Positions 26,208 to 32,117 of a stretch of DNA of 32,410 bases are shown here, piece by piece. The DNA is taken from positions 1-32,410 of the forward strand of contig MHSS01000009.1 in assembly GCA_001822835.1 (NCBI GenBank), read 5' to 3'. A program made the position numbers and the translations under genes. Position 1 is the stretch's first letter; the number at the start of each line of letters is the position of its first letter. This DNA comes from Candidatus Terrybacteria bacterium RIFCSPHIGHO2_01_FULL_48_17 (GTDB lineage Bacteria; Patescibacteriota; Minisyncoccia; Terrybacterales; 2-01-FULL-58-14). The notes below the pieces were generated by a model that was not told the DNA's origin, searched no databases, and saw only the letters and a list, made by a program, of their open reading frames with translations.

Positions 26208-27269
26208 ATGAAAGCTCTTATCCCTGCAGCTCGTGACGCAAAAACGCGACCCTTTTGGCGCGACAAAAATAAACACTTGTTGCCCTTGGCAAACACGCCG
26301 ATGATTGTGTATGCGCTTTCCGCACTTGAGCGCGCGGGACTCCGCGACATTGGCATTGTGATTGGTCCAAACGATGAAGATTTAAAAGGTTTTTTGGGCA
26401 ACGGCGAGCGTTTTGGGGTATCGCTAAGCTTCATTACCCAAAACGAACCGCGTGGCATTGCGCATGCGGTTATGTCGGCGAAAGAATATTTGGGAGACGA
26501 CTCGTTTGTTTTGCATCTTGGCGACAATATAGTGCGCGAAAATATCGCGATGCTTTTGGACGCCTTTATGCAAGCGGATGCCGCGTGTCTTTTGGCCCTC
26601 GCAAAAGTGCGTAACCCCGAGCGTTTTGGCGTTCCGATATTTGAGGGAGAGAAAATCCGCGGCGTTGAAGAACGCCCCTTCAAACCTCAAAGCCCTTTTG
26701 CGGTAACGGGTGTATATGTATACCATCCCATGGTGCATGCGTTGTTGCCGGAATTGAAAGTAAGCGCGCGAGGCGACTATGAAATTTCCGATCTGCACAC
26801 GCGTTTGGTCCAAGACGGCCAAAATGTGCATTGGGTAGAGGTTTCCGACTGGTGGAAAGATACCGGCCAGCCAGAAGACCTTATCGACGGCAATCGTTTT
26901 GTGCTTGAGGGTCTGCGCGGCGATAGGGAAGGGAGCGTTGCTCCCGGGGTGGTTGTAAAAGGACCCGTGCGCATAGGAGAGGGATCAAAAATTCTTGGAC
27001 GTTCCGTTGTGTTAGGACCGGCTGTCATTGGGCAAAACTGTCTCATTACGGACTCGTATATTGGCCCTTACTCGTCTATTGGAAACAACGTTGAGCTTCA
27101 CGGCGCTGAAATAGAAAACTCCGTGGTGTTTGATGGTGTGCGCGTGGCATCGGCAAAACGCATACAGGCGTCTATTCTCGGAGAAGGTTCGATCGTGGCA
27201 TCGGAACAACACACAAAACCTTCGGGGCATCGCATTATCGTAGGAGAGGGATCAGTCGTTGACTTGTAA
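26208..27269 (+). CDS. RmlA-like sugar-1-phosphate nucleotidyltransferase with left-handed beta-helix C-terminus; altered signature loop
   Basis: NKHLLPLANTPMIVYAL, LHLGDNIV, WKDTGQPEDLIDGNRFVL, hexapeptide repeats (VVKGPVRIGEGSKILG...IGPYSSIGNNVEL). Confidence 0.85.
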   Translation: MKALIPAARDAKTRPFWRDKNKHLLPLANTPMIVYALSALERAGLRDIGIVIGPNDEDLKGFLGNGERFGVSLSFITQNEPRGIAHAVMSAKEYLGDDSFVLHLGDNIVRENIAMLLDAFMQADAACLLALAKVRNPERFGVPIFEGEKIRGVEERPFKPQSPFAVTGVYVYHPMVHALLPELKVSARGDYEISDLHTRLVQDGQNVHWVEVSDWWKDTGQPEDLIDGNRFVLEGLRGDREGSVAPGVVVKGPVRIGEGSKILGRSVVLGPAVIGQNCLITDSYIGPYSSIGNNVELHGAEIENSVVFDGVRVASAKRIQASILGEGSIVASEQHTKPSGHRIIVGEGSVVDL

Positions 27270-28387
27270 TGCTACAGCAGCCGTTAGTTACCATAACGCT
27301 TTTAAATTGTAACGACCGCAGGACCATTTTCCATGCGGTCGATTCTGTTGCGGACACGCACTATCCCAATCTTGAACTCATCCTTATTGATAACAATTCC
27401 ACCGACGGCACGAGGGAGGAACTTGAGTCGCGTATTCCTCAATGGACGGCGCAACGTGCAAAAAATGTATCCCTTATCCCTTATCCTTTATCTTCTGGTT
27501 GGTTTCATTTCATAAAAAATAATGAAAACGTCGGCTTTGCCCGGGGCCACAACCAGGCGATACGCATGGCGGGCGGAGAATTCATTCTTTGTTTAAATGC
27601 CGACGCCATTCTTACCCCAATATTTGTCGGGGAAGCCCTGAAACCCTTTTCAGATGAGCGCGTTGGTGCGGTACAGGGGAAGCTCGTGCGTTATGACTTT
27701 GCCAAAAATGCTCCCAGGACCCAAGACCAAAAACAGATTCTTGATACAACGGGCCTCCTCATTTTAAAAAATAGGCGCGTTGTTAACCGGGGCCAGGGAG
27801 AAAAAGATAACGGTCAATACGAAAAACAAGAAGAAGTGTTTGGCGCAGACGGCGCGGTACCCGTGTATCGTAAAAAAGCCCTAAACGACGTCGCGGTACC
27901 CCTGTTGAACATTCAACATGGAACTTTAAACGACGCCTTGGTTGAATTCTTCGACGAGGACTTCTTTTTATATAAAGAAGATGTCGACCTTGCGTGGCGT
28001 TTGCGTATTGCCGCTTACAAGACCATCTATGAACCAAAAGCTCTTGCATATCACGGCAGGGGATCGGGCGATTCCATGGCGCTCTCGCCTTTAGCGATAA
28101 TTAGAGAGCGGAGGAAAATTAACCCGCGCGCAAAATTTTTTTCATTCCGCAATCAGCGCCTCATGCAGTTGAAAGACGAATATCCTTCCATTTTCTTCCG
28201 GCATCTCTATCGGATGTTCCCGAAAGAATGTGCGGCATGGGGATATGCATTGTTATTTGAGGGCACCATTGTGCCGCGCGCTTTGCGGGATTGGGTAGCG
28301 CTTATTCCTCGGATGCTCAAAAAGCGGCGATTTATTATGTCCCGCCGTCGTGCTTCCGTTCAAGATCTCACCCGTTGGTTTGTGTAG
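27269..28387 (+). CDS. GT2 family glycosyltransferase (rhamnosyltransferase-like)
   Basis: LILIDNNSTDGTREELE, NENVGFARGHNQAIRMAGGEFILCLNADAIL, FFLYKEDVDLAWRL. Confidence 0.9.
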   Translation: MLQQPLVTITLLNCNDRRTIFHAVDSVADTHYPNLELILIDNNSTDGTREELESRIPQWTAQRAKNVSLIPYPLSSGWFHFIKNNENVGFARGHNQAIRMAGGEFILCLNADAILTPIFVGEALKPFSDERVGAVQGKLVRYDFAKNAPRTQDQKQILDTTGLLILKNRRVVNRGQGEKDNGQYEKQEEVFGADGAVPVYRKKALNDVAVPLLNIQHGTLNDALVEFFDEDFFLYKEDVDLAWRLRIAAYKTIYEPKALAYHGRGSGDSMALSPLAIIRERRKINPRAKFFSFRNQRLMQLKDEYPSIFFRHLYRMFPKECAAWGYALLFEGTIVPRALRDWVALIPRMLKKRRFIMSRRRASVQDLTRWFV

Positions 28388-28388
28388 T

Positions 28389-28440
28389 CCTTGAATATTT
28401 AAACTTTTGAACCCTTACACCTTGAACCTATTGAACTTTC
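28389..28440. repeat. TTGAAC-type 7/8-mer degenerate array
   Basis: CCTTGAATATTTAAACTTTTGAACCCTTACACCTTGAACCTATTGAACTTTC. Confidence 0.7.
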
Positions 28441-28444
28441 ATTT

Positions 28445-29254
28445 ATGGAACTTTCTATTGTCGTTAATCATTATCGCTCGCCCGCGGCGCTCAAAACCTC
28501 GCTCGGCGAACTTCAAAAAAACGTTTCGCTCTCACACGAAACAATCGTAGTGGATAGCGCTGCCCAAAAAGATACTGGGCGTATGCTCAAAGATCTTTTT
28601 CCCAATGTCCGCTATATTCCATTTCAAGAAAACGTCGGCTTTGCAAAATCGGTGAATGCGGGTGTAAAAGAAAGCTCGGCACCCTATGTATTTATCGTAA
28701 ACGCCGACTTAATCATCGGCCAGAAGTGCGCAGAATCCTTGCATGCGCTTCTTGAGCGAGAGAAAGACATTGCATTAGCTTCTCCGCGCCTCCGCAATTT
28801 CGACGAAACGCTGCAGCCATCGGCATTTCGCTACTATACTCCGTTGCGCATTCTTGCCCGCAGAACCGTGTTGGGCAAAACGCCATTGGGCAAAAAAATA
28901 TTGTCTCGTTTTGTGGTGCAAGAAGCCCTGCGCGAAGACCTCGCAGGCCCTTTGCCGGTTGATTGGGTCATGGGTTCGGCCCTCTTTGTACGCAAAGCCG
29001 CCATTGAAAAAGTGGGGATGCTGGACGAGCGGTATTTCATGTATTTTGAGGATGTAGATTGGTGCCGGCGCTTTTGGGAAGCGGGCTATAAGGTTATGTA
29101 CGTGCCCTATGCGCGGGCATGGCATTTGCACAAGCGTGCATCAAAAGGCGGGATGTTTGATGTTGTTTTGAATCGGTATACTCGTATCCATCTTTTGTCC
29201 GCAGCAAAATATTTTCTCAAATTTGGCGTATCGGCTCCCAAACACGGTGTTTGA
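28445..29254 (+). CDS. GT2 family glycosyltransferase
   Basis: ELSIVVNHYRSPAALKTSL, ENVGFAKSVNAGVKESSAPYVFIVNADLII, YFEDVDWCRRFWEAGYKVMYVPYARAWH. Confidence 0.9.
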   Translation: MELSIVVNHYRSPAALKTSLGELQKNVSLSHETIVVDSAAQKDTGRMLKDLFPNVRYIPFQENVGFAKSVNAGVKESSAPYVFIVNADLIIGQKCAESLHALLEREKDIALASPRLRNFDETLQPSAFRYYTPLRILARRTVLGKTPLGKKILSRFVVQEALREDLAGPLPVDWVMGSALFVRKAAIEKVGMLDERYFMYFEDVDWCRRFWEAGYKVMYVPYARAWHLHKRASKGGMFDVVLNRYTRIHLLSAAKYFLKFGVSAPKHGV

Positions 29255-29307
29255 ACTTTTAAACACTGGACCCTTGAACTTTTGAGCGTGTAACTTTTGA
29301 ACTGTCC
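29250..29307. repeat. TTGAAC-type 7/8-mer degenerate array
   Basis: TTTGAACTTTTAAACACTGGACCCTTGAACTTTTGAGCGTGTAACTTTTGAACTGTC. Confidence 0.7.
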
Positions 29308-29310
29308 GCT

Positions 29311-30228
29311 ATGAAGGTTATCATTATCGGTGCACAAGGAATGTTGGGCCACGCGCTTTCTGATGTTTTCTCGCGCGCCACCCAGAAACTTTTATTATGG
29401 GATCGTGGCGATCTTGATATTGTCAACCGCGCTGCTGTGGAGATGGCCATCGGAAGAGAAAAACCGGATATTCTTATCAATGCCGCAGCATATACGGATG
29501 TTGATGGCGCAGAAAAAGAACGCGAACGTGCAATGCAGGTGAATGCAACGGGCGTCGGCAATCTCGCCGATACGTGCGCAAAGCTCCAGATTACCATGGT
29601 GCATTATTCGACTGATTACGTATTTGATGGCAAAAATCCAAACGGTTACAAAGAAAGCGATGTTGCGGGAAATCCGGTCAATTTTTATGGCCGCTCAAAA
29701 CTTGCCGGCGAAGAATTATTTGTATCACCTTTTAAACCTTTGAACCTTGAACACGGAATTTACCGCTGGTACTTGGTACGTACCTCGTGGCTGTACGGAC
29801 CGCACGGCAAAAACTTCCCGTTGTCTATGATCGAACGCGTCCGCGGGGGACAGAAAGAATTTAAAGTGGTTAACGATCAACACGGTCGTCCTACTTACAC
29901 ATACGATTTAGCACATGGAACCTTTGAACTTTTAAAATCTAAATCCCCAGCGGGCATCTATCATCTAACCAATTCCGTGAAAGATAATACGTCGGGCCAA
30001 AAAGAGCCATCGGTTACGTGGTTTGATTTTACAACAGAAATTTTCCACAGAGCCGTTGCATTCGATCCGGCGTTTCATGAGGTTTCGGTAGGGCCTTGCA
30101 CATCAGTCGACTTTCCGCGTCCAGCCATTCGCCCGAACTATTCCATATTGGTAAGCACAAAACGTCCTCCTTTGCGTTTGTGGGAAGATGCGCTGCAAGA
30201 TTATTTGCGGTCCCATGTTTTTGCGTAA
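29311..30228 (+). CDS. rmlD: dTDP-4-dehydrorhamnose reductase
   Basis: [50 protein letters not shown]. Confidence 0.93.
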
Positions 30229-30982
30229 GATCATAGTGGCAGGGTTGGTAGCATCCGCGCTTGGCGCGGTTTTTGCTATTGGCTTTTTGTGGGGAAACAA
30301 AACCAAAGAATTTCCTGTACCCGGATTACCTTTTAGTGAAACCCTTCTTGAACCTGAAACGTTTAACGTTGAACGTGGAACTTTGCACTTGGAACATGAG
30401 ACGTTAATCGTTTCCCGTGTTATCGACGGCGATACCGTAGAATTGTCTTCCGGCGAGCGCGTGCGCATTATTGGCATTGATGCGCCCGAGCACGATGAAT
30501 GTTTTTTCGAGGAAAGCAAGACCATGCTTGAGCAATTGGTTTTGGGGAAGGATGTCCGCGCACAACAAGAAACGAACGACCGAGACCGTTACGGTCGGCT
30601 TCTTAGGCATTTATACGTGGGTGATACCTTCATCGATCTTACCTTGGTAGAAGAAGGTTTTGCCGCAGCATACCCATATCCACCGGACACGGCATACGCC
30701 GCAGAATTTTCAGATGCAGAAACGCAGGCAAAAGCGCACGGCCGCGGTCTTTGGTCAAGTTGTGCTTCTTTTAAAAATGTTGAACAGTTTAACTCTGAAC
30801 CCTCGGTTGAAGGATGTGTTGTAAAAGGAAACATTTCCTCTTCCGGCGAAAAAATTTATCACCTTCCTGGTTGCGGATCGTATGGTAAAACCAATATCGA
30901 CGAATCAAAAGGGGAACGGTGGTTTTGTTCTGAACAAGAAGCGCAATCTGCAGGTTGGCGCAAGGCCGGGAATTGCTCGTAG
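30215..30982 (+). CDS. SNase-type (thermonuclease-like) nuclease with C-terminal Cys-rich domain
   Basis: [36 protein letters not shown]-terminal [45 protein letters not shown]. Confidence 0.9.
30348..30410 (+). repeat. Nine in-phase heptamers inside the nuclease ORF
   Basis: TTGAACC TGAAACG TTTAACG TTGAACG TGGAACT TTGCACT TGGAACA TGAGACG TTAATCG. Confidence 0.85.
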
Positions 30983-31415: not shown

Positions 31416-32117
31416 ATGGCACAAAGACCCCCTTTTACGAATGGCGAGTTTTACCATATTTATAATCGCGGAGTAGAGAAACGAAAAATCTTTCTAGATA
31501 AAAAAGATTACTTTCGTTTTCTTCACGACCTATTTGAATTTAATGATGCGGATGAAACGTTAAATTTGAACTATTATTATTATGGTAGTCCGACTACCAT
31601 AGTTGAGCGGAGGCCGCGGAAACTGCTTGTTGACGTGCTTGCTTTTGCGCTTATGCCAAACCACTATCATTTGTTACTGCGTCAACGTCGCGAAAACGGA
31701 ATTTCGAAATTTTTGCAAAAACTCGCAGGAGGATATACGCGTTATTTTAATGAAAAACGCGAACGATCAGGAGTTCTTTTTCAGGGAAAGTTTAAGGCAA
31801 AACATATTAATGATGATCGTTATCTCCGGCATCTGCTCCTTTATCTTCACACAAACCCCGTAGATATTTTTCAGAAAAATTGGAAAAGAGCTGGTATTAC
31901 TCATGCCGCTCGTGCACTTCGATTTCTTGAACGGTATCGATGGTCAAGCTACCCCGATTATCTTGGTATTAAAAACTTTCCTTCGGTTATTAATCTCGAG
32001 CTCGTAGATGAGTTTGGGCTTCCGAAAGGGAAAGAGCAGCAAAAAATAATGGTCGAATGGCTTGGGGCTCCTGGTCAAAAAATGCAGAATGTTTTCGATT
32101 TTACCTTTGACCATTAA
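31416..32117 (+). mobile_element. REP-associated tyrosine transposase (RAYT, Y1/HUH family) ORF
   Basis: GEFYHIYNRGVEKRKIF, FALMPNHYHLLL (HUH), KFLQKLAGGYTRYFN (catalytic Tyr region), LFQGKFKAKHI. Confidence 0.93.
31581..31601. repeat. REP-like palindrome inside the RAYT ORF
   Basis: TATGGTAGTC C GACTACCATA, perfect 10-bp arms. Confidence 0.85.

Follow-up and report, generated by a model that had tools for sequence, protein, structure and literature searches.

Heptanucleotides are the most common long simple sequence repeats in many bacteria (Mrazek 2007), according to two papers that cite this finding (PMC4679880, PMC4692102). The same papers carry the proposal that seven nucleotides is the length contacted by the polymerase, and they describe bacterial examples that include GGGAATC in Xanthomonas, GGGGA[T/C]T in Nostoc, and heptanucleotide repeats in Calothrix. 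For repeats within coding regions, unit lengths that are multiples of three are expected (PMC4679880, PMC9879509). The genome described herein, and apparently its class, breaks this rule in essential genes. A literature search restricted to openly licensed papers yielded no report of heptanucleotide repeats in Patescibacteria, which is weak evidence of absence.

The DNA analyzed is a 32,410-nucleotide stretch (hereafter the window) of the genome of Candidatus Terrybacteria bacterium RIFCSPHIGHO2_01_FULL_48_17. Near its end lies a gene whose product combines an SNase domain with a C-terminal sunset domain, making it an SNase/sunset nuclease (Table 1). The protein comprises 254 residues when counted from ATG 30218, which is probably the start codon given the homology to loci L048 and L049. 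A preliminary description of this DNA placed a 7-nt repeat array in a linker between a transmembrane segment and the SNase domain. The domains and the linker position hold up, and the hydrophobic N-terminal stretch, as read by eye, is a putative membrane anchor. We consider it likely that the array is a decayed heptanucleotide microsatellite in a tolerant linker, and that it belongs to a genome- and class-wide pile-up of varied 7-nt arrays.

Table 1. Positions in the window of the nuclease gene, its array, and the neighboring genes and tracts
Feature	Position	Strand	Evidence
Nuclease gene hosting the array: putative N-terminal hydrophobic anchor, linker, SNase domain, sunset domain	30218..30982	+	PF00565 (6e-20); NCBIfam sunset NF051437; AF2 model
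Degenerate TTGAACN heptad array, 9 units, last two weak	30348..30410	+	Sequence; 20-nt pattern search; heptad scan; lag identity
TTGAAC heptads in rmlD, peptide FKPLNLEH, at a 7-9 aa loop insertion	29732..29752	+	Heptad scan; homolog alignment; PDB 8g22, 1vl0
rmlD (dTDP-4-dehydrorhamnose reductase), host of the 29732 tract	29311..30228	+	PF04321 (5.9e-77)
Spacer TTGAAC heptads, starting at the final codons of the glycosyltransferase gene upstream	29251..29302	+	Heptad scan
Spacer TTGAAC heptads	28391..28427	+	Heptad scan
TTGAAC heptads in GT2 gene, peptide LNIQHGTLN, at a loop insertion relative to most homologs	27905..27931	+	Heptad scan; homolog alignment
TATCCCT heptad array in GT2 gene, peptide VSLIPYPLS, in a variable-length loop	27468..27492	+	Self-similarity search; homolog alignment
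GT2 glycosyltransferase gene with two unrelated heptad arrays	27269..28387	+	PF00535 (3.3e-20)

The array spans 63 nt and consists of nine in-phase heptads (TTGAACC, TGAAACG, TTTAACG, TTGAACG, TGGAACT, TTGCACT, TGGAACA, TGAGACG, TTAATCG) that are translated as EPETFNV / ERGTLHL / EHETLIV, as the preliminary description had it. Seven of the heptads are clear. The final two are weak, with heptad 8 matching the TTGAAC core at 3/6 positions and heptad 9 at 4/6. Given this weakness, and because heptad 9 overlaps strand 1 of the SNase barrel in the AF2 model, the secure part of the array amounts to about seven heptads. A TTGAAC heptad scan of the window gives the array a score of 14.2, and the same scan finds no array in 20 Markov shuffles of the window. 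A 20-nt pattern with up to three mismatches has nine matches in the window versus 0.06 expected. The array therefore displays the tandem 7-nt periodicity beyond chance that defines a heptanucleotide simple sequence repeat.

Self-identity within the array is 0.66 at lag 7, 0.63 at lag 14, and 0.64 at lag 21, and it ranges from 0.03 to 0.36 at lags not divisible by seven. Because the three lags are equal in identity, the array is primarily repeat DNA, and its 7-nt unit comes before any period in the peptide. This supports the earlier view that repeat-type DNA resides in a coding linker. Translation of a 7-nt repeat, whatever its frame, comes back to its starting point every seven codons, and thus the heptapeptide period is an arithmetic consequence, as was also correctly recognized before. 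We rejected duplication of a 21-nt unit, or duplication at the protein level, as the origin of the array, since either would favor lag 21 and no such bonus is seen. Likewise, the array is not of the type found in Borg open reading frames, where repeat units are divisible by three: its period is 7, and lag 21 does not rise above lag 7.

Perhaps the peptide itself is what selection has favored, with an alternating polar/hydrophobic pattern that builds a strand stack, a short coiled coil, or another useful structure. The translation is indeed periodic (E..T.xV), and in the AF2 model its final residues run into the first strand of the barrel. However, the absence of a lag-21 bonus in the DNA argues against this reading, as does the model itself, in which residues 39-57 have pLDDT values below 50 and the barrel, with values above 90, begins only at about residue 60. 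Moreover, orthologs carry unrelated linkers. The preliminary description had proposed looking for conservation of the linker at the protein level in distant orthologs, and there is none: alignment with class relatives reveals linkers of other sequence and other length. We therefore regard a selected heptapeptide as very unlikely. Most likely, the heptapeptide stretch serves as a putative spacer that separates the nuclease domain from the anchor. Because the linker is similar in length to those of the nearest orthologs, the array may have replaced linker sequence instead of lengthening the linker.

TTGAACN read in frame yields TGA as one codon in seven, and in the nuclease array these positions fall in heptads 2, 5, and 8, where the codons now read GAA, GGA, and GAG. 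All three have been mutated, which explains much of the degeneracy that the preliminary description expressed as T[TG][GA]. A hand count over the three coding TTGAAC tracts and their genes in the window found G at position 2 in 5/5 in-frame heptads and in 1/12 off-frame heptads (Fisher p=0.001). An open frame lacks stops by definition, and what this count reveals is how the openness arose. Recoding of TGA was rejected: among 378 well-scored genes with an intact stop, TGA ends 70, TAA 204, and TAG 104, and thus TGA works as a regular stop codon in this genome and code 11 applies. The nuclease array, rescued by substitutions, represents a rare orientation in which the unit itself bears a stop. 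A consensus heptad with a stop occurs on the coding strand of one in 34 coding arrays, versus the opposite strand of 13 in 34, and, for intergenic arrays, on 17 of their 40 strands (p=5e-4 and 7e-5 for sense-strand stop avoidance relative to antisense and intergenic strands, respectively). Coding arrays are thus almost always kept in the stop-free orientation.

The TTGAAC family is represented by five tracts, all on the + strand and all within 2.5 kb (27905-30409): two in spacers and one each in the GT2, rmlD, and nuclease genes. The spacer tracts had been noted before, and both are present. The coding copies in the GT2 and rmlD genes, as well as the TATCCCT array in the GT2 gene, are additions to that picture. 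The rmlD and GT2 tracts coincide with loop insertions, since class relatives lack these loops or have them at other lengths, and the rmlD loop is missing from solved RmlD structures 8g22 and 1vl0. A horizontal origin of the cluster from a donor rich in repeats was considered as well; the nearest homologs found are only about 50% identical. Downstream, at 31416-32117, is a gene for a REP-associated tyrosine transposase (Y1_Tnp), with ATGGTAGTCCGACTACCAT-type short palindromes ahead of and within the gene and a further palindrome after it, in a REPtron-like arrangement.

Independent births do not readily account for five same-family tracts on a single strand within 2.5 kb, and this stretch around the nuclease gene also holds 9 of the 16 matches to the 20-nt pattern in the whole genome, or about half of the total. 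One might therefore speculate that template switching or recombination copied a single TTGAAC tract of the polysaccharide cluster to nearby loops and spacers, such that all five share one origin. However, among 49-66 arrays of this genome, neighbors resemble one another no more than random pairs do (p=0.6), and satellites with the same heptad are no more common than in controls. Like heptads are thus not locally clustered in general, and local spread is unsupported as a general mechanism. For the five tracts here it is possible but unlikely in our estimation, and it could add to a general process of array formation without replacing it.

Such a general process is suggested by the genome as a whole, where period 7 is favored. 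A sequence-blind self-similarity search was performed for each lag over 480.6 kb, comprising the window and stretches of the same genome that had not been chosen for hits. It found 32 arrays of period 7, compared with 7 of period 9, 4 of period 12, 3 of period 6, one each of periods 5 and 11, and none of periods 4, 8, 10, or 13. This excess over other periods is that of a heptanucleotide simple sequence repeat, and shuffles of the genome gave zero period-7 arrays at stricter thresholds. The heptads vary and include CAGGGTA, CAAGATA, CAAAATC, AAATTCC, TTATCCC, CTGATTT, and others. The preliminary description had recommended a genome-wide search for TTGAACN, and this heptad does not constitute a genome-wide family. 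We rejected that idea because there are few tracts outside the window cluster, all weak. The feature shared across the genome is instead the period of seven, with many heptads. In the class, three near-perfect TTGAACN units are found in 20/286 genomes, and a reversed control pattern turns up often as well, owing to the presence of other heptads.

By gene calls from a simple codon model, 18 of the 32 arrays lie wholly in predicted genes, 6 cross a gene end, and 8 are intergenic; the coding fraction is 83%, and array density is still higher in spacers. It had been proposed that spacer-type repeat DNA expanded into the nuclease linker. The repeat-DNA portion of this idea stands. However, with more than half of the arrays wholly within genes, many of them housekeeping genes that seem to take no harm, the arrays are not chiefly a matter of spacer DNA leaking into one linker. 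A spacer-to-gene direction is conjectural, and the nuclease array may have arisen either by expansion in place or by insertion of a ready-made tract.

Pfam matches, sought for the array-bearing genes only, identify the hosts in unselected stretches as TsaD (two arrays), RNA pseudouridylate synthase, PNPase, UvrB, DnaX, FemAB (two), trigger factor (at the C-terminus), LepA, and DprA. Stretches chosen for a TTGAAC match add LeuRS (four), RecG (three), PriA, Mur ligase, ATP synthase gamma, DNA polymerase X, and GlmS. Where arrays sit at the 3′ end of a gene (L389:13617-14930 and L223:12051-13196), they lengthen the C-terminus, and one of them supplies the stop codon. A separate curiosity is a 286-aa open reading frame (L385:3666-4526) that has no Pfam match and contains three heptad arrays, one of 83 nt. 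It may be a protein built from repeats or a gene that has diverged strongly.

A 7-nt unit in coding sequence next to surface-polysaccharide genes brings to mind a phase-variable contingency locus, in which adding or losing a unit changes the reading frame and thereby switches the nuclease and those nearby genes on and off. This mechanism exists in neuO of E. coli K1 (PMC13001214). However, the neuO tract is uniform, whereas the nuclease copies are far from near-identical, at about 66% identity (lag 7). Furthermore, like arrays occur in essential genes such as those for LeuRS and DnaX, where an OFF state would be lethal. We consider phase variation extremely unlikely here. Because the repeat has since been broken by point mutations, the nuclease array is probably no longer prone to slip.

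In LeuRS, too, arrays take the form of protein insertions. The four heptad arrays of this gene (L219:8942-11554) include two, IQSSKSKVQ and GIPNSKFQIPNSEF, within an insertion of about 41 aa. Residues 446-486, which make up this insertion, are absent from nearly all class relatives as judged by alignment gaps, and also from Thermus LeuRS 1h3n, in which the chain runs straight on from residue 443. A further array adds 6 residues at 556-566. In RecG, 17 and 10 residues are added at two arrays. LeuRS, RecG, RmlD, and GT2 thus all carry in-frame additions that are lacking in homologs, as do proteins hosting Rickettsia palindromic elements. In LeuRS of the same-family genome G052 (L304), the match is piecewise, and about 550 nt of extra sequence between query residues 235 and 246 adjoins the position of an array (232-243) in the LeuRS studied here.

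In-frame inserts in unrelated housekeeping genes across a genome are also what a short mobile element family would produce, as described for the Rickettsia elements (PMC10969869). If so, the arrays would not be products of slippage at all. However, they have no common sequence, no palindrome, and no fixed length, and their period is the only constant. A mobile family therefore seems to us quite improbable.

Array formation by some 7-nt process appears to extend to the class. In G021 (L292), a genome from a different family of the class, LeuRS carries perfect heptads AGAAAAC and AATTCAA at two loops that also hold arrays in the LeuRS studied here. These different heptads at common loops point to separate births at sites that tolerate change. 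Among 15 other LeuRS genes of the class, we found nine period-7 arrays in five genomes, one of period 6, and none of periods 9, 12, or 15. AlaRS and MnmA also have arrays in other genomes. In the first part of contig 1 of 40 class genomes (665 kb), there are 33 period-7 arrays/Mb versus 1.5/Mb in 70 loci of other bacteria (663 kb), a contrast that is indicative only, as these non-Patescibacteria loci are nuclease homologs and often G+C-rich. In G052, stretches without a long open frame (L274:15457-19023) contain CCCTAAA-like heptads, which is the plant telomere sequence.

Based on the different heptads at common LeuRS loops in the distant class members G000 and G021, and on the arrays in 5/15 other class LeuRS genes, we tentatively suggest that a lineage-wide process in Patescibacteria specifically makes 7-nt arrays and feeds heptapeptide inserts into loops of essential proteins, with worn arrays being a main source of lineage-specific insertions in housekeeping proteins. 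This broader proposal is plausible, though we would stop somewhat short of calling it probable.

How might such arrays arise? We infer slippage in 7-nt steps. Slippage during replication, or a similar error of copying that strongly favors this step, would keep making arrays. Within genes, the arrays are seen to persist at variable loops and linkers, in frame, and either in the stop-free orientation or, as in the nuclease array, with every in-frame TGA position mutated, which we take to be the work of selection. The copies have also been worn down, in the nuclease array by point mutations. MutS was not found in this genome, which fits a high tolerance for slippage. Mismatch repair works chiefly on small loops, and thus loss of MutS does not by itself explain the number seven. 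The insertion lengths of 6, 10, 17, and 41-42 aa do not fall cleanly on multiples of seven residues, and therefore the slippage account needs extra indels.

If confirmed, these observations would provide a mechanism for loop insertions in Patescibacteria proteins, as well as a direct record of mutation versus selection in strand orientation, stop avoidance, and loop choice. They would also make the question of why seven testable, whether the answer is the polymerase footprint, the repair defects of reduced genomes, or something else. Additionally, they warn against taking heptapeptide stretches of predicted Patescibacteria proteins for domains, since these are repeat DNA that has been read through.

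Each of the closest known systems shares some of these features. According to PMC4692102 and PMC4679880, the Xanthomonas, Nostoc, and Calothrix repeats likewise have an over-represented 7-nt unit and degenerate units, with variable length stated for those known repeats. In contrast, those of Xanthomonas and Nostoc are described there as lying mostly between genes, each genome having a single heptad type, whereas here there are dozens of heptads and more than half of the arrays are in genes. The TAACTGA direct repeats of marine Beggiatoaceae (PMC4679880) also form short heptamer arrays whose placement is limited by a stop codon in one orientation. However, they have one fixed sequence, lie near start codons, have a proposed regulatory role, and do not form inserts in protein domains. 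The neuO gene (PMC13001214) has a 7-nt coding repeat as well, with a frame that is open when the repeat number is divisible by three, but this is a single gene with a uniform tract that is still slipping, unlike the degenerate arrays in many genes seen here. Borg tandem repeats (PMC9879509) similarly turn DNA repeats in open reading frames into amino acid repeats that are mostly disordered, although all Borg units are divisible by three and near-perfect, whereas the unit here is seven and the copies are worn. Finally, Rickettsia palindromic elements (PMC10969869) resemble the arrays as tolerated in-frame additions to unrelated housekeeping proteins, but they belong to palindromic families of about 150 bp, whereas those described herein are simple arrays of about 20-130 nt with no common sequence.
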